A stretch of 64,000 bases of DNA from Eimeria necatrix (taxonomy: Eukaryota > Apicomplexa > Conoidasida > Eucoccidiorida > Eimeriidae): contig NW_013651892.1 in the NCBI RefSeq assembly GCF_000499385.1, forward strand, positions 1 to 64,000, written 5' to 3'. A program made the translations under genes and the position numbers. The notes under the pieces are model-generated. The model did not search any database and had not been told where the DNA came from. It worked only from the letters and a program-made list of their open reading frames with translations. Below, piece after piece: positions 1,754 to 59,223 of this stretch. Positions within the stretch are counted from its first letter, which is position 1, and the number at the start of each line of letters is the position of its first letter.

Positions 1754-2254
1754 CGCAGCGTGTCTGCTGCTGCTGCTGCTGCTGCTTCTCCCTCGGCGCC
1801 GTCACTCATGCTGGTGGGCGCAGAGGGGCCCCCGGGGCTCTGCCGCAGGCGTTGCTGCCCGCCAGCAGCAGCAGCAGCAGCAGCTGCTGCTGCTGCTGCT
1901 GCTGCTGCTGCAGCAGAGGGCCCCTCGTCGAGCTGCAGCAAACCCTCTGCGTCGTAGAGACAGGCCGCGCTGCTGAAGGCGCTGCGCATAGCAGCAGCAA
2001 CGTCGTGGCCTGCTGCTGCTGCTGCTGCTCGGAGGCGGCTCTGTCCCCAGCTGCTGCTGAGGCCCGCAGCAGCAGCAGCAGCAACAGCAGCAGCACCACT
2101 TGCTGCTGGGTAGGGACTGAAGTGTCTCCAATTAATTGCTGCTGCTAAACGCTGCAGGAAACTCCGCTGCCCCAGCAGCGCAGCAACAGAAGCAGCAAGT
2201 GGGTCTTTAGGCTGCCTGGCCAGCGAGACTACGGGAGCAGCAGCAGCAGCAGCA

Positions 2255-2288
<34 letters not shown>

Positions 2289-2429
2289 CTGCTGCTGCCT
2301 TTGCTGCTGCTTTTGCTGCTGCTGCTTCCTCCTTGGGGCCGTCGGGGCCGTGGAGAGCGGCGGCGGCGAGCTTGCCCTCGAGGGCGCCGTCGCCCGCGGC
2401 AGCCGCTGCTGCTGCTGCTGCTGCTGCTG

Positions 2430-2473
<44 letters not shown>

Positions 2474-2621
2474 GTCTCCTCCAGCAGCGCCTCCGCGTAA
2501 GCTGCTGCCAAGTTGTCGCAGACAGCGTCCAGCATGGAGGCGGGGCAGTAGGCGAGGAAGATCTGCAGCAGCAGCCGCAAGTTGTCCGTTTCTGCTTCTG
2601 CTGCTGCTGCTGCTGCTGCTG

Positions 2622-2658
<37 letters not shown>

Positions 2659-2868
2659 CTGCGCGCGCAGCAGCCGCAGCAGCGGCCGCCGCTGCTCCAA
2701 AACCTGCAGCAAGTCCCGCAGCAAAAAGGAGACATAAGGAGACAGTTCAGCGAGAGAAGCAGCAGCAAGAACTGTGAACTGGTGATAGGCGTATTGGGGG
2801 TTTCGCTGCTCCACCACAATTGCTGCAGCGTTTGCTGCTGCTGCCAGCGCAGCAGCCACGGCCCCCTC

Positions 2869-2911
<43 letters not shown>

Positions 2912-3067
2912 AGGCCCAAAGCAGCTTGTGCTGCTCGCCGCGCCCGAGACACTGCAGCAGCAACTCCCCGCGGCAGCGCGCTGCTGCCAGCAGGCCGCAG
3001 CATTGCCAAGACACCCAAGACATCCGACAGCAGCAGCTGCAGCGCCCGCAGGTAGTCTGCTTCGCTG

Positions 3068-3121
<54 letters not shown>

Positions 3122-3128
3122 CGGCACG

Positions 3129-3167
<39 letters not shown>

Positions 3168-3239
3168 GCGCGAACGCGCCTGCCACGACGCCCAGCAGCA
3201 GCAGCAGCACGCCGCGAACGCCACCCCCCCCTCCACCCC

Positions 3240-3244
<5 letters not shown>
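1..3244 (-). CDS. Downstream part of the LSG1 frame: repeat-rich helical protein, open at left edge
   Basis: The minus-strand frame that starts as LSG1 at 4734 stays open here to base 1, giving 1,578 codons in total with no stop. Between poly-Ala, poly-Gln, poly-Ser and poly-Leu tracts there are well-behaved helical stretches: one near 2500-3060 containing YAYHQFTVLAAASLAELS and LLLQIFLAYCPASMLDAVC, one near 2120-2220 containing AINWRHFSPYP, and one near 870-910 containing TLVSFLLSLLPE. These look like alpha-helical repeats of HEAT type, but I do not recognise the family. The left end is Gly/Pro-rich. This should be the GTPase core of LSG1 and it is not: no P-loop, no NKxD and no DxxG motif is visible. 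It may be a second gene fused by a repeat-driven misassembly, a true fusion, or sequence split by introns I cannot place. Confidence 0.55.
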
Positions 3245-3293
<49 letters not shown>

Positions 3294-3541
3294 CCTGCTT
3301 GGGGGGCTGGAAGGCCCTGGCGAGTCGCTCGAGGGCGCAGCAGCGGAAGAAGGCGGGGTCGCGGGCGTCCAGCAGCAGCAGCAGCAGCTGCGCGCGCTGG
3401 CAGCAAATCGCCAGCTGCTGCCACAGCGCGCAGTTCCGCTCGAAGGGACTCAGCAGCAAACCCCCGGCCTCCAGCAGCGCCAGCTGCCGCCGCCACGCAG
3501 CAAACGCTGCAGCAGCAGCAGCAGCAGCAGCAGCAGCGGGA

Positions 3542-3575
<34 letters not shown>

Positions 3576-3837
3576 AGGAGGAGGAGGAGAGGTGGTGAGG
3601 AGCCGCTTCTGCTGCTGCTTCCTCCGTCTCAGCCGCGGAACTCTCTTCTGCTTCTTCGGACTCCGACTGTTCAGATTCAAATTCAAATTCAAATTCTTCT
3701 TTTTCTTTTTCTTTTTCTTTTTCTTTTTCTTCTTCAGATTCAAATTCTGTTTCTTCTTCAGACTCTTCTTCAGATTCAGCTTCAAATTCGGACTCCGACT
3801 CTGTGTCTGGCTCCGAGTCTGCGTGCGGGCGGGCGTT

Positions 3838-3892
<55 letters not shown>

Positions 3893-4078
3893 AGCAGCCG
3901 GCCAGCGCGCGCTGCTCCGGGCTTTTGTGTCTTCGCTTCTTTTTTGTTTTTTTGGAACTTCCGGTGGAGCTCTTCGCGCTGCTGCCGCACGAAGTGGACA
4001 TTTTGGATTGTGGCTTCTTCGAGTTTGCCCCGCAGCAGCAGCTGCACGCGGCCGCGGTTCCTGCGTCTGCGGCTCCTC

Positions 4079-4122
<44 letters not shown>

Positions 4123-4237
4123 GCTGCTGCTGCTGGCCGCTTTGCTGCGCTGCTCCGCGGCTTCCCGCGAGAACAACAGCGGCTCCAGCGGGATCGGCAC
4201 CTCCACCTCCTCCACCAGCGAGTCCGCCAGCTGCAGC

Positions 4238-4273
<36 letters not shown>

Positions 4274-4480
4274 GCTGCTGCTGCGCCGCAGAAGGGCGCC
4301 TTCGGCAGCAGCAGCGGGGCGGTGGGCTCCTGCAGCAGCCGCGCTGCGCTGCGGTCTTCAGCGAAAGTCTCTTGAGCAGCAAGAGTTGTGGCCAAGTACT
4401 CGTCGAGCCCGCTGCGCTCCAAGACTGACCGCAAGTCCTCCTGCTGCTGCTTCCTGCTGCTGCTGCTGCTGCTGCTGCAG
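300..4480. repeat. Dense CAG/CTG trinucleotide tracts
   Basis: More than twenty uninterrupted tracts of 6 to 20 CAG or CTG units lie here, for example at 780-823, 1560-1600, 3070-3120, 3241-3291, 3840-3892 and 4080-4121. In the coding minus frame they are read as Ala, Gln, Ser, Leu or Cys depending on phase. This matches the homopolymeric amino-acid repeats described in Eimeria. Tract orientation alternates (CAG on one strand, then on the other), giving potential hairpins such as 1279-1319 and 1388-1428. Confidence 0.95.
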
Positions 4481-4734
4481 TGCAGCCGCTGCGCCCCTGC
4501 AAAGGCCCCCGAGAGAAACTCCAAAGTCCTCTCCCGAGAGATGCTGCTTCCCATGGCCACCCCCGCGGGGGCCCTCGCCAGCAGCGCCCGAGACTCCTGG
4601 CTTTGCTGCTTCACAGCCGCCACGAGCTGCTGCTGCTGCTGCGCGCTCGCCGCCTGCTGCAGCAGACAGTGGTGCAGCACGGCGCTGCCGATTTCGCCCT
4701 TCCGCCCCCGCTGCTTCCTTCCGGGCCTCCCCAT
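3245..4734 (-). CDS. LSG1: LSG1-like 60S ribosome-biogenesis GTPase, N-terminal half
   Basis: LSG1 is a cytosolic circularly permuted GTPase that helps release NMD3 from pre-60S ribosomal subunits. The ATG at 4734-4732 opens with a basic MGRPGRKQRGRKG start like LSG1. Residues 110-116 read LDEYLAT, matching the LSG1 LDDFLAT block. After an acidic Glu/Phe/Lys tract (about residues 305-360), residue 414 onward reads WRRQLALLE, then LSPFERN (428-434) and LDARDPAFFRC (455-465), which match the LSG1 sequence before its NKAD motif. Poly-Gln, poly-Ala and poly-Ser tracts are inserted between these blocks. The NKAD motif expected next is missing: the frame enters a run of about 18 Leu codons at 3290-3240. 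Identity is strong; integrity is doubtful. The frame continues into the preceding feature. Confidence 0.75.
3690..3735. repeat. TTTTTC/TTC short tandem repeat coding for Glu-Lys
   Basis: A run of six-base CTTTTT units is flanked by TTCAAA units. On the minus strand it encodes alternating Glu-Lys, then Glu-Phe, inside the acidic insert of the LSG1-like protein. The biased composition without CAG units sets it apart from the surrounding tracts. Confidence 0.8.
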
Positions 4735-5289
4735 TGCAGCAAAAGGGCCTTCTGCACTTTCTGCCTTCTTCAAAAGTCCAAAAACACTTCAAAGGACCCC
4801 CAAAGTCCCGGAAGCGCCCCCCCGAGCGCCCCAGCAAACCCGCACACCCGGCGGCGGAAACCGCCGCGGAAACCCCCGAATTTCGAACTTCTGGCCTTCT
4901 TTCGCAGCAAATTGTGGCGCCAATTTTCATTTGGGATCTTTTTAACAAAAAAAGATCGCGAAAAGAGCCAAAAAATTCGCTTTCTGAAGAAAGTTCAACT
5001 TGGAGAAGTCTTCGGCGCCGGCTATTGACTCAACAACAACGCGCATGCGGGGCAGCAGCAACCCGCTCCGCCGCAGCCGCAGCCGCAGCAGCAGCAGCCA
5101 GGACACTCGACGGGAAATGCAAAGATTAAATGAAATTCTTTTTATTTGGAACTGAGGATCTTCTCCATCTCAGTGGGAAATATAACTCGTATTTCGCCAA
5201 AGTGCGACTTGCACGCGCGGCGGACGGGTGGCGGTCAGTGCCGGCCGGCTCCTTCAGCCCGTCCAAAACAGCAGCAACTGCCCACTTAA
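4735..5289. other. Upstream region of the LSG1 gene, no gene seen
   Basis: This stretch lies immediately 5' of the LSG1-like start codon and presumably holds its promoter and 5' untranslated region. Open frames here have no conserved features and are mostly continuations of frames opposite the LSG1 gene. I see no RNA gene and no recognisable control element. Confidence 0.5.
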
Positions 5290-15398: not shown

Positions 15399-18300
15399 CT
15401 AGCGTAACGTCGATACAGGGAAACGCTCTGGTAATAGCAAACCTACCTTGTAGATTCGAACAACCCAATTTTCAGAGGTGAAGACCTCCTCGAAATGTTT
15501 GAGAACAATATCTCCGGTATTTACTTGTGTCTTTCTCGCGAAGTCAAAGCCCTTAGTTGCCTTGCCGAAGTGTTGGTAGCTAAGCTTATAAAGCAGACTA
15601 TTCAGAAGGGCATTCGGGGCTCCTTCTCCAACAGTGAACTGCGCACGCATACAACTCCAAATGCCATCATCCAGCTACGTGTACACAAATCCTCCCAATT
15701 TCACATTTTTATAACGGATATACCTGCCCCTTGGGTCCGAGGTAGTCTGACTGCTGCATATCGGGGAATACTCCAGATGCGATGCGAATCATCCAGATCA
15801 ACTTGTTGAGATCATCGCTGGAAAATCGTGCCATCCCACCGAAGACGACCTGAGCGATTTCAGATTTTGCATACGAGTTTTTTTCCTTACTAATCTGGCC
15901 TTGCCAGCTTTGACTCATTTTGGCTTTGGATTGTAGCTGCTTACAAATACATAGTCAACATCCAGGTCTTGAGCTATCTCGTAGGCTTGGAATTCCTCAG
16001 ATCCAAAGGCCTGAATATAATTGCAGCGCACTCAGAAAGCTGTGAATAACCCGTCACAACAGAATGCAGCGCATAGACAGTTTGATGGAGTACACAATAG
16101 TGCAGGAGCTCCTTCCTGTTTTGTCTTTCCATTTGCAAGAAACATGCAGTTCCCACGCTGTTGAGAATGCTCACAAGCCCAACAGTTGCGATATGCGTGC
16201 TGTTCCACGTATTGTTGTCCACAAAAACCGTCCTGTTCCCAACTTCTGATACTTGATATCCATAGTCCCACCTGCACCACAAAACAGTCGCTGTGCTAGC
16301 TTCACTGAAATAATCCGGGTGGAACCTAGCTCCCTTGCCGTTTGCTAAGCTCAAACAAAACCCGGGAAATGCATACGTGAGCACAAAATGGAGGTGCAAC
16401 CGTAGTCTTAAACATACCAGGCCATAATTCGAGACTTTGGGTGAGTGTTTTGACGAAACCAATCGTATGCTTCGCGGAAGTCATCAGGCTTTGGTGCTTT
16501 GGAGCGACCAATTGGCCCTCCTGCGGCAAAACAGGTACAACTCATCAAACGGTGCTTTTTGTAGCCTTCCATGAGCTCTGAAGCAAGGCCTGCGTGTAAC
16601 TTCGAACATTAGAGTGCTGCACAAGCATTAAGCTGGTTTGTGCACCAGTGGCCTTAAATATTTGCCTTTGGCAAGGTGGTCAAAGCTAGATTTGGACGGA
16701 CCCATAAAGATGCTTCTGTTCGAAAGCACCGCAGAGGCCATCCAAGTGCAGTGGACAACATACTGAACCAAATCCGCAAAACAACTCCCGAATGTCGCCA
16801 TGTTGTAACGAAGCCCGACTCGTAATGCTACCATTTCTAGTCCTTACCATGATACATAGCCAGAAAAATGCTAGTAGCACTGGAATAGACACTGTGAAGG
16901 GAATCCTGAAAGTGCTGCTTCTTATCACTTGAATGCCGAGCTGCGGGAGACAAAAGAAACAGGTGTTCAATGGTCCAGCCGTAATCATCCAGCCAAGGCA
17001 AGCCGAGCACCAAGCAGCAGCACAAGTGCAAAGCAACGAGTTCAAATGGAAGCTTACAGATTTCAAAGTCATACTGCTGCCGCCAGGGTAAACCCTACGA
17101 CACTGAGATAGAACCCCGGCAACCAAGGTAGCTGCGCCGATCCCAGCAAGGATGGATGCCGCCGGTGAAAGAACGAGCACAAGTCTGACCATGACGGCTG
17201 CGCAAAATAAGTGCGTATGCCATCTGTATTCAATGAATAGCAAAACGTTTCGGCCTCAACTGCCATTCTGTTTGCTAGTCACAGACTCTGGCGGCCTAAT
17301 GCCTGTTGTTCGTGCTGTCACGGGCGTGGAAATTCTACTTAGACAGGGCAATTGCCTCACCTGAGAAGTAGCAAGCCAGCACGCCATATAAGCCAACGAA
17401 GAACAGGCCTCCCCCTCGTTGGAGAGATAGAATTAGTCCCAATGGAGCAAGAAACATTACCATGTGGAGGTCAAGGAAGTATGTGGACCAAGTTGGTGGT
17501 TGGTGCTCTGACACGGAAGCCACGATAGGTATATACTTGGTTGCGTAAGTAGGATCCAGCAAAGTTAGGGACCTCGGCGACCACGCTGTTTTGCCCTATT
17601 AAACGCAGTGGCAAGAATCCTTGGTCACTTTCTTTCACCAGCAATGTTTGCAAAAGCACAGTGTGCATCAACGCTGCGAAAGCAAAGGGCGACTCAACCC
17701 CCTCTACTTGAATTACCGTGAGAGCCAGTATTGAAAGGACGATCAATATAAGGAGACCTGCTAGTCCAATGACCCAGGCTTGAAGGTCCTTCACAAGGTC
17801 CTTTGGAACTAGCGAAGAAGCAAAGCGAGCTACCGCAGACGCAATGACGAGCACGAACACTCCGTGGCTGGCCATATGCTCAGAGCTCCAGAGAGGGGTG
17901 AAGTTGAGGAAGGGAATATTGATGCAGAATGCGGTAATGATGACGTAGAATACAATGTACGCCACCTCGTGTTTTGGGGTTATTAACCCGAGTACACATA
18001 AGGCGAACACGTGAATGGCAATCGCATTGATAAGAAATACATAGCCACCCCAAGCAGAGGCCATGTAAGCAGACGGAATAGCAGCTAAGAGAGCCGATAT
18101 CATTGTGCCTCTCTTTACGGCACGGGTCCACATATAAAACCCGCTAATCATAGCAAATATTGCTATGCACTCATTGTCGTAGGATCCCACAAGCGAAGTC
18201 TTAATGTAGGCAGGAGATATTCCAACAAACAGCGCCGCAAACAGCCCGGCCGCTCGCGAGCCGCTGGCATGCTTGGTGAAGCAGTGAACTACAAGAGCTG

Positions 18301-18786
18301 TTAAGCAGGAGAAGAAAGGCGGGAGATAACAGGAAACATCATACACGCTGACTATTATGCCACAAAAGCTCAAAATCTTGTGGAATAAGTAAGAGGTTGT
18401 CATCAGTCCTGGGAAAAGAGTTTGCCCTGATGGCCGTCCAAGTGGATACCAACTTGCTGCAGCGAACGTCACAACGGAAGCATTCAAATCCAAAAGCACT
18501 TTCCACAAATTTAAAAAGACAGGCCACATGTTGTTAAGGGTGGAGGCTCCCCAAAACACAGTGAAGGGCGTAGAGGCTCACCGTCATCGTACCAATTCCA
18601 GAACTCGCTGAAGCCCTCCTTGGCAAGGAACTTGGTTGCGCGGTGGTTGAAGTACGGGTCGAAGTCATAGATTGTTGACTCGCCCCGAATAAATGGGAAC
18701 AGCCGAGTGGAAAGGCATAACAGCATTATTTGGACGAAACAAACCACCTCAATTAGTGAACTCCATCGTTTTGCAGCAGCTTGTAC
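15399..18786 (-). CDS. STT3: STT3, catalytic subunit of oligosaccharyltransferase
   Basis: Transfers the lipid-linked glycan to Asn in N-glycosylation sequons in the ER membrane. Visible hallmarks in order: [19 protein letters not shown] (the luminal DxD-type loop), WYPLGRP (from the exon at 18456), [26 protein letters not shown] followed by [11 protein letters not shown], the catalytic WWDYGYQ (split by an intron, joined near 16270), [13 protein letters not shown], and a soluble C-terminus ending [13 protein letters not shown] ([11 protein letters not shown]) before a TAG at 15399. About thirteen hydrophobic segments precede the soluble domain, as in the family. Many short introns break the gene; example donors are at 18581 and 17709. 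The first resolved exon starts at an acceptor at 18786, so the true start codon lies upstream; an ATG at 19104 opens a short acidic frame that could be the first exon. Confidence 0.93.
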
Positions 18787-50908: not shown

Positions 50909-52719
50909 TCATGGCTCCCGTTTAATCCGCAAAATTTCGGAGTTCCTCCTGTCGTCCCGCGTTTCGCTGCGCCGGCGGTGGTGTTGCCTCTCTTCCCTTG
51001 CTCTGTCTTCTTCCAGCAGCTCCTTCTTGACTCCTCTTTGGTTTCCACTACCTCTTCCCTCTCTGGGGCTGTAATGTCCGCTGTCCCTTCTACTTACGGA
51101 CACCTCACGGCTCCGTCTCCTGCTGCGCGACCTCCGTTCCTCTCTCTTAACGTTTTCATGCAGTCCCTTGTACTCCTTGCCTTCCCTTTCACTATTCGAA
51201 CGGAGCTGCCCGCCATCTTTTTCGGATTCTCTTGTATGCCGCTGCCTACGGTCGCTGTCTTCTCCAGTAGCCCGGCTGCTCCTGTGCCTGCGCCGCTCCT
51301 GCCTCTCCTCCTGATTTGGCTGAGAGTGCGACCGCCGGCGCCTCTTGTGGCTGTGTCTTTCGCGGCTGTGGGAATGGCTGCGCTTGCGGGAAGCGTCGTC
51401 AGCCTGTTTCCTGCGTCCCTGCCTTCTTGTTAGCTCGTCGGAGTGCAAAGTTCTCTCCACGGGAAGTCTCTCTTCTGATGGAGGTCTCTTTGTCCTCACA
51501 CTTTTCCAGTCTTCTCTGCGGGGGCTGGTACTGGCTTCACGGCTGCGCCTGTGGTGCCTGTCTTCTGAGGGAGGCGTCTTAGTTCGCACGCCTGTCAGCC
51601 GTTCTCCACTGCAAGGGCTTTTGCTGGTGCGCCTGTGGTGGAGCCCGTCATCCCTATCTTTTCGTCGTTTGCTTTCGCGATCACTTCCGCTGCTTCTTCC
51701 AGCTGAGGAAGAGCGTCCACGGGCAGAGGGGGAAGTGCTGCGGCGCTCTCTCTTTAGTTTCCGGAGAAGCCGCGCTTCTTTCTTTTGTTCTTTCTTTTTC
51801 AGCTTTTTCAATTTCCTGACCAAAACCAAAACGAGAGGCAAATAGCATACCACACAGCTGCCTCGATACACATGCGACTAGAGGGAGCAGCAACAGAGGC
51901 AAAACCTGGTCAAGCTGCTCACTTCTGCTCTTTCTTTAGCTTCTTGAGAGCCTTCTGAGCATCACGGTCTACTGCAGGAGCCTCAGACTTCGCCGCGGGG
52001 CCAGACCGTGGGGCTGCTTCGTCTGCCAATGCCTCTCCAGCGAGCAGATGGCGAGGCCGGCGCCCCCTATTCGAAAAAACCAACAGAAAAAATATAAACA
52101 GAATAAAAATCAACCAAAAGCGTACAAACGCACCAGAGTGAACCCGGGCTGCACAGACGCCACGCAACAATGCTGTGCGCTTACAGAGCTTCATCAAGTA
52201 GTTGCTGCTCAAACCGTTTCACTCTTTGCAGTTCTTCATCCTCTCCTCCCTTCTGCGGCCCCGTATCCTTCTTTTTTGTCCACCAATCAAACTTTTCAAA
52301 CTTCCCTCCAGTAGTGCAGATGCCCACCTTGGCGCTCGCCCCTTCGGATGTCAAATCGCACTACTGCTTTGCAAAGAGATTATCTTCACAGAATAAAGTA
52401 AATAGTATTATGAAGTGATAGCTCAACAGTTCGCGACGGAGTAAAAACACCGAAGGCTAAACCCCACCGACACGGTGGGCAACAGAGCAAGACTAATACG
52501 CGCGCTGCTGGCCGTGAAAAACTCGGGACAACCTTCCCCACGCGCTATCACTTGGCCTTAATGCATATACGTTCCATAGCAAAACAGAGGGCACTCATGC
52601 TCACCGAGATAATAGTCGCGATCAGCGTTGGACTGTGTCTTCAGGGATTCCCACTTGAAGTCTTCCCACCCTCCCCGTACTCCCTCACGCGGAGGGCTCT
52701 GCTTGATGTAGACAGCCAT
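50909..52719 (-). CDS. MMTAG2-like protein with an SR-rich C-terminal tail
   Basis: Exon 1 (52719-52605) reads MAVYIKQSPPREGVRGGWED then FKWESLKTQSNADRDYYLG, matching the conserved N-terminus of multiple myeloma tumor-associated protein 2 (GVRGGxDQFxWEDVKxxxxRENYLG). The donor G|GTGAGC joins to 52341, giving ASAKVGICTTGGKFEKFDWW then TKKKDTG, equivalent to the NSLMAPVGRWQKGRDLTWY block. A short Lys/Glu-rich exon (ALKKLKKEQK, around 51920-52070) follows. The last exon (about 51790-50909) is an Arg/Ser/Glu-rich tail with RRRSHSQ, RSRSRRRSR and RSSSAGRSSGS, as in splicing-associated nuclear proteins. The family's molecular role is not established; nuclear location and a link to RNA processing are inferred from the tail. 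Internal exon edges between 51790 and 52200 are approximate. Confidence 0.75.
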
Positions 52720-54325: not shown

Positions 54326-57300
54326 TTAAGCAGCGAGTTGCACAGGCAGGTAGCCATCCGTTACAGCCGTAACATTTGCTGCCTGCGCTTGTGGCGCTTC
54401 CCTTCGTGCTTTCATTCTGCTGATCGTAAGAACTTTAGCTCTACGTGCGTATTTCTTGGCGACCGCTAGCGTACTGATCATGCAGCGGTCGTTCATGCGG
54501 GAAGGAGACCGACCCCTGAGGTTTAGGGCCAGAGGCGCAGCCCCTGATATGCCTTCTTCTCTCATACCATACTCAGGAAAAAGGCGAGTGATCTGTGGGA
54601 AGCACTGCGGAATCCGCGCGAACAAGAGGCCCACGAAGCCGATAAGAAGGCTCAGGCACCACTGTTGCCACGTGAGGCCCTGCGACAAAAACACAGGGGT
54701 GAAAACCCAATGAAGAAATGGCTTGAAACTGCGAATGCGGGCATCTAAAGCACTGTCGAATTTTAGCCCAAAACTGCCCAGAAGAGATCTCATTGTGGCT
54801 CACCTCACGGTGACAGCCCAACATAGCTCCACCATACTCCACCATTAGGACTTGCGAGAAGAGAATAAATAACCAAATAAAGAACCCCATAGGGTTGCTT
54901 GTCATTTTGACAAAGAGCCGCGGTAGAGACATTTTCTTAGCAAAGTCTTCCTCTACGTCCCTTGCACTGATCATGTTGAAAAGCTGCATCAGCACAAATG
55001 TATTAAACACAAATGTCAGGTGTCGTGAAGGCCCAATTACTCCAACCCAACGCTCCTCATAGTCTTCTTCGGTAGAAAACAATTTAAACCGTCGGCCAGA
55101 TCGCATGAGGCTTCCTTGCCCTAAATTCACAGAAACATAGGAAGAGCCGTGCATTGTATCCTTGCGATACACATTTATACTTATTCACTTTTGTGCCTTC
55201 TACAACTGGTCCTACATTTTATGGATGCAGGGCTGGGGTTGGTCTACTGTAATTCGTCGCACCTGTGACAGGATCGCAGTCGGAGAATTCGCAAAAGTCA
55301 TTTTGGGTCCTGTCTGCCGGCAAGAGGTACCCCCACTCTGTTTCTGGGAGGAAAGAGTCTCCATAGAAGATGAGCAACACCATAACTACAAGCTGATACA
55401 CGGCTGACGTCGTGATTGTGAGAGCCATCGACCTGGAGATCAGCGACTGGTGCCTGTGGTGAGGTTTCTGTTTTAGCAGGTCTGGCGTGGGAAGTTCTGT
55501 CGCAAGAGCCAGAGAAGCAAAGCTATCCATGATGAGATTTACCCACAGCATCTGCACCGCAGTTAGGGGGGAGTCGCGCAGCAGTGCAGCGCAGATGATG
55601 GTGGTGATGACGGCTACCACGTTGACGGTGAGCTGAAACTGCAAGAAGCGCCGAATGTTGCTGTACACGTTCCGCCCCCATTTCACGGCTTGCACTATAC
55701 ACTGGAAGTTGTCGTCTAGCATTACAATGTCTGCTGCTTGCTTGGCTACCTCTTTGCCCGTGATGCCCATGGCCAAGCCCACGTCAGCCTTCTTCAGCGC
55801 CGGCGCATCATTCGTCCCGTCTCCAGTGACAGCCACTACCTGCCCCAGTTGTTTCAAAGCAGTGACTAAAACGTACTTATCTGATGGCTGAGATCTTGCG
55901 AGCACCTGAAGGCGCCGCCATATCCTCTCAAATGCATCCATATTTCCAATAACATCAACTCGCAGGTTCTTTCCCTCTGCTTCTGCGGTCTTGGCATCTG
56001 TGGCGCAGCCGCACATTGCCGTTCTGCAGGTTTGGCAAATGACCCCTCCCACAAGCTTTGTGAAATCAGGACCCAGCATTGCCAGATCTCCCCTTTCTTC
56101 GTTGAATATGTGGCACTTCTTTGCGATAGCCTTTGCGGTTATCAGGTTGTCTCCTGTCACCATCCTCACATTGATTCCCGCTTGGTGACATTTCTCTACA
56201 GCTTCTGGAACTTCGTCTCTGACTGGATCCATGATTCCAAAAATGCCAAGGCAGACCAGATCCTGCTCAGCAACTAGGAATTGCTGGTTAGGAGCGTGCT
56301 GTTTCTCTTCCCAGTCAGGGACATCATCCATGCTAAGGTCTCTGTATGCTATGCATATAGTCCGCAGGGCTTCGCGGGCCATTCCATCGATGACTTGGTC
56401 TTCTATTGCAGCTTTGTGTTCTTGCTGAATCTTTTGGATATCGCCGTCAGAATTCATAAGATAGTTGCACAGGTTCAGCACCCGCTCAGCTGCGCCCTTC
56501 ACATAAACGCGCAAGCGGGCATCGCCGCCGCCATCCAGGTGGACGATGGTGGTCATCATCTTACGGTCGCTTGAAAAATCCTCCCTGTGGGCTATGAGTG
56601 AATCAGAGCCCTTCAGCCTTCGTGTTTCTGCATAGTCTGCACCGCAGATAAAATCGTTAAATTCCAGCAAGGCACACTCAGTTGCTGATCCGACATATTT
56701 CACAGTATACTTAGGGGTCTCCTGGCCGTTGTTAAGGGTCATCACTTCCATTTTTTCAAGGTATGCAGTTGAGTTCAGTGAAATGCTTTCAGAAATCAGA
56801 TTCCACTTCTCGGTATGCTCATTGAACCCCGCCACACCCACCGTGTTTGGCCCTGCGAAAGAAGCTGAGGGGATATGCACAACCTTAGATCCATTCCAGA
56901 ATGCAACGGCACTCATTTGATTTCGTGTAAGGGTGCCCGTCTTGTCGGAGCACACTTCATTAGCGGAACCCATTGTCTCGCAAGCTCCTAGCCGCCTCAC
57001 GTAGTTCTGGTCCGCCAGCATTTGCCCAATCGAATATGCCAGGGATATGGTGACAGCCAGAGGCAGCCCCTCGGGCACAGCAACGACGAGGACGGTGATG
57101 GCTGTGACAAAGAAGTGAACGTGACTGCCGATTATGGCCACGATTGGAGGCCGCTGGTCGGGTTCAGTGTACATGAAAATGACCCAATATTCCAATACGA
57201 GGATGCAGAGCGCAATGATAGCACATACAAGCCCGAAATTGCCGATGTCGCCAGCAAGAGCATTCAGTTTCAGTTGCAATGGAGTTGCTTCCGTGTCGAA

Positions 57301-59223
57301 CGAAAGTTTCTGGTATAGTTGCCCAGACTGCGAGTGTTGCCCGACAGCAATGACGATGGCACTGCCGCTTCCGCTGTTCACAGTTGTTCCTGACAGCACC
57401 ACAGGCGAGGAAAAGAAGTGGTGCTGCATCGACCTCGGACTCCTTGTATCTCCGTCAGCAATCTGTGCTATGCAGCCATCATACGTGTCTTTCTTGATCA
57501 TTTCGGATTCGCCTGTCAACGAGGACTCGTCCATCCGTAGACTCCGGCAAGATACTACAATGCAATCCGCCGGCAGCTCATCCCCTGCTTCAAATTGCAG
57601 CAAATCTCCCAGCACGAGATCAAACACAGAAACTTGAGTAGGACATCCATCTCTCAAGACTGTGCAGTTCTTGTCATCTTTTACTGCAGAGAGCTGACGG
57701 AACTGCTGCTCCTTCATCCAGTCGTTTCCAGCCGTCACGAGTACGACTACCAAAACAGCAACCCATATAGCAGCCCCCTCCATCCATTCCACTTGGGGAT
57801 TTTCACCAAAGAGCTGAGAGAGGACAATTGAGGCGAGGCCGCAAACCATAAGGATCTGCAAGGTGTTGTCGGACGCAGCATCAATGCAAAGACTAAGGAA
57901 AGAAGCAGAGGCGCGAGAGGGAAGCCGATTGACCCCAAACAACTTCCGACGGTGTTCGATGTCTTGGGGGTCTGAAAGCCCCACAGAACGCTGCACATGC
58001 AACATATGTGCAATGCCGTCCGCTCCTCCCATGTTCTTCAGCATAGTCAGATCTTCACATTGGGTCCTTGTCACATAAGCCTTTACCAGGCCCGTCAGTT
58101 TCTCCCTTATATCTTCAGCCTGCTCGGGCGATATGTGCTCCAAGAGCCCCTCCTCAACAGTGCCAAATGACCCTTCCGCGGATGAGTCCCTGCGGCTGAG
58201 CCGCCGGGAATAGTAGGTGCGGGTAAGTTGCGGACTGAGCTGTCTCCTTTCCTCGTAGCTGTCTACGGCGCAGCAGAGCCTCCCTGCAATCAGAAGAGCC
58301 AGGCCCAGCCACAGCAGCAGCCCAACAGGGCCGCATAGCTGTACTGAGAAGAAAAAAACGGCAAGGACGGAAGCCAATTCGCTGATACGCCAAGCCTGGG
58401 GCCCCAACGCCTTCATGAGCTGGTTACTGACCACGCTCTTAAAAAAGGGAACTGTACCCGCGGTGATCCAGCAGCCCAATATAAGCCACTCGTGGAGGTC
58501 GAAAGAAGTCAGTTTACTAAAAGAGACGAGCTCAGGCTGCTCGTCAGCCAACCATATCACAAGCGGCAGCACCAAGACACCAGTTAGACTGCAGGCTGCG
58601 GTCAAGGAGCCCTCATCAGACCCGCTCATGTGTATTGCGCGCGGCATGTAGGCCCCCCTGTAGATAGCTGAGGTCACAGCCAAGAGAATGCAGTAATAGA
58701 ATTCCAAGTAACCGATTGAGAAGAAACACGAAGCTGCCAGCAAACAAACGGCGCCCCATCGCAGTGGCGTATACTGCGTCTGGCATCCTGTAGACCTAAA
58801 CATATGATGGAAGGCCACCAAAAGCCCTGAGGCGACAGGGAGGGCAGCTGGATGCACTATATCCGAAATCACGCTGTTAGACACTGCGTGGAAGGCGCAG
58901 TATGCAAGCGAATAGGGCAGCAGCTGGACAAACCACTTGAAGCCCCCTAGTTTGACTGGAGGGAAAATCGCAGCCCGAGGGAACGACACACCCAGCTCTC
59001 CAACTATGGAGGCACTGATGAGTAACTGCAGCAGCTGCCACCATGTCAGGAACAGCGGCGTCGGATAGTAAGTAAGGAGGCAGTAAGATACAAGAACCTG
59101 CGATACTGTGAGAGCTACACAGGCAGTCAAGAGAAACACTTCGCCTGCTGTCCAACTGAACTCAGTGAAGACGCCTCCCAGGTTTCGAAAGAAGTTGCCC
59201 AATGGGCCTGCCGATTCCGTCAT
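54326..59223 (-). CDS. Fusion of a DMT/SLC35-like transporter with a plasma-membrane-type Ca2+-ATPase
   Basis: Exons 59223-55263, 55120-54804 and 54679-54326 sum to 4,632 nt, 1,543 residues in phase. Residues about 20-315 hold about ten hydrophobic helices with YPTPLFLTWWQ and FFKSVVSNQLMKALGP-like blocks, resembling triose-phosphate/nucleotide-sugar transporters of the drug/metabolite transporter superfamily. After a Ser/Arg-rich linker a complete PMCA-type P2B ATPase follows: TGES at 570, PEGLPLAVT at 717, the phosphorylated Asp of DKTGT at 760, and GDGTNDAPA at 1134. Exons 2 and 3 supply the last membrane helices (FVFNTFVLMQLFNMISAR) and a basic tail that could bind calmodulin. The ATPase part would export Ca2+ from the cytosol. 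Both domains lie within exon 1, so no splice choice is needed to fuse them. The start is a true ATG. Confidence 0.88.

Follow-up and report, generated by a model that had tools for sequence, protein, structure and literature searches.

Ca2+ signalling powers motility and secretion in coccidian parasites, whose set of pumps has been described only in part. The Ca2+ pumps of the PMCA class (type IIB) include human PMCA1/2, plant ACA8 and Toxoplasma TgA1, the last of which reportedly loads acidocalcisomes and is also expressed at the plasma membrane (PMC12131190). Among carriers of the TPT/SLC35 type, the GDP-fucose transporter TgNST2 serves as an example (excerpt of PMC6939170), and the nearest fusion involving a P-type ATPase that we found described is the alveolate guanylate cyclase-P4-ATPase TgATPaseP-GC (excerpt of PMC6592433). 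Here we analyze a stretch of 64,000 nucleotides from Eimeria necatrix (contig NW_013651892.1 of assembly GCF_000499385.1, positions 1 to 64,000; hereafter the window), in which a gene on the minus strand, at 59223-54326, joins a plausibly TPT/SLC35-like membrane domain to a PMCA-type Ca2+ pump within one open frame.

The encoded protein shares features with each of these systems and departs from each. It is like the type IIB pumps in family model, catalytic motifs and helix-4/6 residues (TgA1 being likened by description only), whereas it carries an additional membrane domain of ~320 residues ahead of the pump. With TPT/SLC35 carriers such as TgNST2, which is also compared by description only, it has in common its size, a 71-column profile similarity to a TPT-type gene of the same genome (the C138 gene) and possibly ten hydrophobic helices; in contrast to them, its front domain is without a Pfam match and without a detectable relation in its second half, and its substrate class is putative. 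Like TgATPaseP-GC, it covalently joins a P-type ATPase to another functional unit in an alveolate, but the Toxoplasma protein, as the excerpt of its source describes it, belongs to the P4 class, has a cyclase as partner and bears the ATPase at its N-terminus (PMC6592433). Among the literature matches listed, no title or abstract opening describes a fusion of a TPT/SLC35-like domain with a Ca2+-ATPase.

The fusion lies within one open frame

All coordinates of the gene refer to the minus strand. A single open frame runs from 59223 to 55219 and comprises 1334 codons from its ATG, with the carrier/pump junction inside it; measured from stop to stop, it holds 1340 codons, as an in-frame stop stands six codons upstream of the start ATG. 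Among 200 shuffled 6-kb sequences, the maximum open-frame length was 257 codons, and we reject a chance open frame. The spliced model consists of three exons of 3961, 317 and 354 nt, giving 4632 nt of coding sequence for 1543 amino acids and one stop, and it reproduces the model of a first-pass annotation that had been made from the letters of this DNA. Exon 1 (55263-59223) encodes the carrier-like domain, the linker and the pump up to residue ~1320, and ends on ACAG before the donor GTGCGA. Exon 2 (54804-55120) encodes C-terminal membrane helices of the pump, and exon 3 (54326-54679, including the stop) the last membrane helix and the cytosolic tail. The introns, at 55121-55262 (phase 1) and 54680-54803 (phase 0), are both GT-AG, and the reading frame is kept across them. 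The annotation had also placed the whole pump inside the 3961-nt exon, which does not hold, since the final 223 residues are encoded by exons 2 and 3.

Within exon 1, the front membrane domain (residues 1-322; 58258-59223) is followed by a linker (residues 323-395; 58039-58257) and by the core of the pump (residues 394-1320; 55263-58044). The claim of a carrier and a pump fused in one frame is borne out, the 1334-codon frame having no break where the two meet. The fusion is thus confirmed at the DNA level, and its chance origin is very unlikely.

The homology of the front domain ends at residue 322 and the alignment with ACA8 begins at residue 394; the 71 residues (213 nt) between them contain no stop and are, in our judgment, too short to accommodate a 3' end, a promoter and a 5' end. 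When the 219-nt linker was itself shuffled, 3.46% of 20,000 shuffles stayed open. The codon log-odds of the linker are 0.033 in frame as opposed to -0.338 and -0.192 off frame, so that it looks coded, more weakly than the rest of the gene. From these features, the fused protein is likely to be made as one product. Three observations count on the other side: the codon usage of the linker is ~1.8 standard deviations under the mean of the gene (0.128, standard deviation 0.052), translation of a pump lacking the carrier could begin at Met394 or Met398, both in frame, and the fusion is known here from the DNA of one assembly alone.

The pump half

Residues ~394-1543 match the type IIB (PMCA) model NCBIfam TIGR01517 with 827.1 bits, well over its cut-off of 507.05, whereas the competing models stay under theirs (409.3 of 798.3 bits for the PMR1 type, 354.8 of 703.4 for the SERCA type). 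P-type ATPase domains are recognized by Pfam in this half, and the closest solved structures are those of human PMCA1/2 and plant ACA8. The catalytic motifs are all intact, namely TGES at residue 570 (57505-57516), PEGLP of membrane helix 4 at residue 717 (57061-57075), the phosphorylation motif DKTGT at residue 760 (56932-56946) and GDGTND at residue 1134 (55807-55824); the first-pass annotation was therefore right both in the PMCA identity and in the four motifs. Residues E718, N1229 and D1233 are present in helices 4 and 6, where we take them to form part of the Ca2+ site. For a putative calmodulin-binding autoinhibitory tail the signs are mixed: a basic stretch occurs close to the C-terminus, but amphipathicity peaks elsewhere, where the last helix ends. 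The pump half should be an active exporter of Ca2+ from the cytosol.

Elsewhere in the assembly, PMCA-like matches were found on C32 and C415, and fewer P-type matches on C625, C909, C832 and C978. None of these six gave a match to the front domain at E 0.001. In the pieces fetched from C32, C415, C625 and C909, the front domain was matched only weakly, by four hits on C909 (locus L023; E 0.11-0.72) that we take as chance. The pump part of the C415 gene is divided into seven exon-like pieces and one duplicate, and by eye an intron stands at the codon and phase of intron 2 of the window gene, the flanking matches being weak (E 0.028 and 0.048). The C415 gene shows no counterpart of intron 1 at the corresponding position. 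An origin of the window gene as a complete retrocopy of an intron-rich PMCA is rejected, because intron 2 is seemingly common to both genes, with the weak flanking matches just mentioned; judged by its gene structure, the pump of the window looks like an intron-poor PMCA relative.

Several further observations concern these relatives. The PMCA-type exons of C32 and C415 are both located at contig ends and share an overlap around query residues 1100-1157, so they are perhaps halves of one split gene, or else two paralogues. On C415, part of one exon has an apparent tandem duplicate with 26 identical residues (L021 7111-7034 and 6956-6804), and TTTAGGG telomere-like repeats adjoin exon borders within introns (L021 near 6985-6940, 7660-7630 and 7480-7450).

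The front domain and its relatives

Genome searches covered the window's own assembly (44.0 Mb, 1148 contigs), in which the front domain occurs once fused and once alone. The standalone copy is a single-exon paralogue at C115:10996-12117, with 374 codons from Met in one open frame, and it shares 31% identity with the front domain in the genome search (E 1.7e-37) and 30% in pairwise alignment (E 2e-41). Within 9.9 kb of sequence retrieved around it, nothing homologous to the pump turned up. A reverse query with this copy at E 10 returned three matches, that is, itself, the window gene and a weak match on C497 (E 0.09), which we take as chance. At 68 of 96 identical residues, Met and Trp excluded, the two copies use different codons, and 32 of their 41 fourfold sites have changed, suggesting that the copies are old and that the protein sequence has been kept. 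Polar and charged residues of the front domain recur in the paralogue in the two-sequence alignment. The ten helices proposed in the first-pass annotation are plausible, as the hydropathy profile averaged over both copies accommodates ten when its long blocks are divided, but proof is lacking, as a stricter scan gives seven. Alignment-based scans of prokaryotic genome contigs and of viral contigs gave 78 and 28 pattern matches, respectively, none of which was confirmed.

The distant relationship of the domain is seen through the C138 gene, which has a Pfam TPT match in two pieces (E 2.3e-6 and 1.5e-5; 27.7 and 24.9 bits, both just under the cut-off of 30) and which we take to resemble the GDP-fucose transporter. 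Its TPT-type piece had no match in the PDB at E 0.01. In hhalign, a profile built from the two copies of the front domain matched the first half of the C138 gene along 71 columns, PTPLFLxW among them, at a score of 39.7 (P 2.7e-5, probability 74.6%). The maximum over 200 shuffles of that C138 sequence was 20.2, its reverse scored 12.2, three stretches of the pump 12.1-14.5, and a Nuc_sug_transp-type gene (Pfam E 6.6e-106) 21.4. When single sequences were aligned with the first half of the C138 gene, the score of the window domain was reached by 5 of 500 shuffles and that of the paralogue by 0 of 500; for the Nuc_sug_transp gene, the corresponding counts were 155 and 32 of 500.

It is important to set beside this similarity the results that speak against a TPT/SLC35 origin. 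Residues 1-343 matched 0 Pfam or NCBIfam families, and the paralogue likewise none in Pfam, at a reporting limit of E 10, yet the filters of such searches discard most matches above ~0.1. A sequence search of the PDB with the domain, the paralogue and their alignment returned nothing at E 10. When the assembly was searched with the TPT, UAA and EamA models, 2, 1 and 5 matches were obtained, respectively, and neither the window gene nor C115 was among them. The second half of the domain showed no relation to the C138 gene (hhalign 10.2; shuffles reached the score in 61 of 500 cases for the window and 482 of 500 for the paralogue). The top control in hhalign was the reversed Nuc_sug_transp-type gene, at 25.6. 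Finally, a single-sequence AlphaFold2 model of residues 1-343 is helical but unreliable, with a mean pLDDT of 41.7.

Taken together with the 71-column alignment, these results make it plausible that the front domain is TPT/SLC35-like by distant relatedness of its first half, and we stop short of assigning it to the family. The annotation had called it a DMT/SLC35-type sugar transporter. Of that description, the DMT/SLC35 part is backed by the distant homology of the first half and lacks a family match, and the sugar-transporter part is weakly supported for the same two reasons. When the two halves were searched separately, the pump half was assigned to TIGR01517 and the front half to no family.

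Alternative explanations

As a whole, the locus is probably best explained, with appreciable room for doubt, as one gene for one 1543-residue protein that combines a Ca2+ pump with a likely still-working carrier of an anionic solute. In a broader wording, the protein would comprise an active Ca2+ pump and either a co-located carrier of the organic-phosphate type or a targeting or regulatory domain.

The latter choice leads to an alternative, whose chances we place somewhat short of even, in which the front domain is genuine yet has ceased to transport, serving as a membrane anchor, a targeting module or a regulator of the pump (a sensor of lipid, phosphate or Ca2+). The domain is very divergent, matches no family and has no TPT relation in its second half, all of which would suit a lost transport function, and a precedent is offered by the alveolate P4-ATPase-guanylate cyclase, the function of whose ATPase part is called "rather enigmatic" by its authors in the excerpt consulted (PMC6592433). 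The polar and charged residues common to the paralogue, however, and the conservation of the protein despite changes at 32 of 41 fourfold sites, fit a working carrier without proving one.

Comparable standing, again below an even chance, is given to the idea that coccidia commonly have this fusion and that gene catalogues already list it as a PMCA-type ATPase with extra helices; the literature matches listed, whose titles and abstract openings are silent on such a fusion, speak against it.

It is improbable that the locus yields two products, with an internal promoter or start at Met394/398 giving an ordinary PMCA and the fused form being rare or absent. The ACA8 alignment does start at 394, which is an in-frame Met, but the linker is open and coding-like, and with no stop after the carrier, a carrier product would have to run into the pump unless the latter were spliced out. 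An assembly chimera, or mis-join of two genes, has the single assembly and the separate related carrier and pump genes elsewhere in it as arguments in its favor, but it is highly improbable, as such an accident would have had to fall at a clean boundary between domains and leave the reading frame intact, the contig spans 231 kb, the window has no N, and a second near-identical copy of either half was not found in the assembly.

Other features of the window

Eimeria genomes typically mix repeat-rich and repeat-poor stretches. CAG-type repeats make up 2.0% of the window, 9.3-10.8% of loci L020 (on C32), L021 (on C415) and L023 (on C909), and 0.2% of L022, and they are absent from L024 and L025. 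At 2229-5129 of the window, both strands hold long overlapping open frames that are mostly translations of CAG-type repeats (poly-A, poly-Q and poly-L) and are unlikely to be genes as listed. On the minus strand, an open frame of 362 codons at 17471-18559 resembles the STT3 subunit of oligosaccharyltransferase in one motif, and an Arg/Ser-rich open frame of 320 codons at 50909-51871 is like an SR protein of the splicing-factor type.

Proposed mechanism and significance

If the locus encodes a pump with a working carrier, as we favor, the C-terminal pump of ~1150 residues would be phosphorylated by ATP at the aspartate of DKTGT and would clear from the cytosol the Ca2+ that binds to its helices 4 and 6. 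The front domain (residues 1-322) would go back to an old and divergent carrier of the TPT/SLC35-like kind, one copy of which became joined in frame to a PMCA copy with few introns. Most likely, this domain would still carry an anionic solute of the organic-phosphate type in the same membrane as the pump, and solute and Ca2+ may enter one compartment, which could be acidocalcisome- or Golgi-like. Transcription of the fused form, the carrier activity, its substrate and the compartment are what we infer in this scheme. The first-pass annotation, too, had suggested that a carrier might be coupled to Ca2+ export in one polypeptide, with the Golgi or the plasma membrane as putative location. Because TgA1 is reported to load acidocalcisomes, a phosphate-rich store would be one possible site of the fusion protein.

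A more specific proposal, which we hold to be rather unlikely, is that of a covalent transport metabolon, in which a carrier of the organic-phosphate or nucleotide-sugar type and a Ca2+ pump load the same compartment from within one polypeptide. If it is true, Ca2+ would be supplied in step with its phosphate counter-anion, or Ca2+ would be provided for lumenal glycosylation enzymes. We know of no established protein in which a carrier is coupled to a primary pump in this manner.

With a carrier built into a pump, the connection of Ca2+ storage to the supply of phosphate or sugar nucleotides could be tested directly in these parasites, and the protein would be a second, unrelated fusion of a P-type ATPase in alveolates, beside the cyclase-P4-ATPase.

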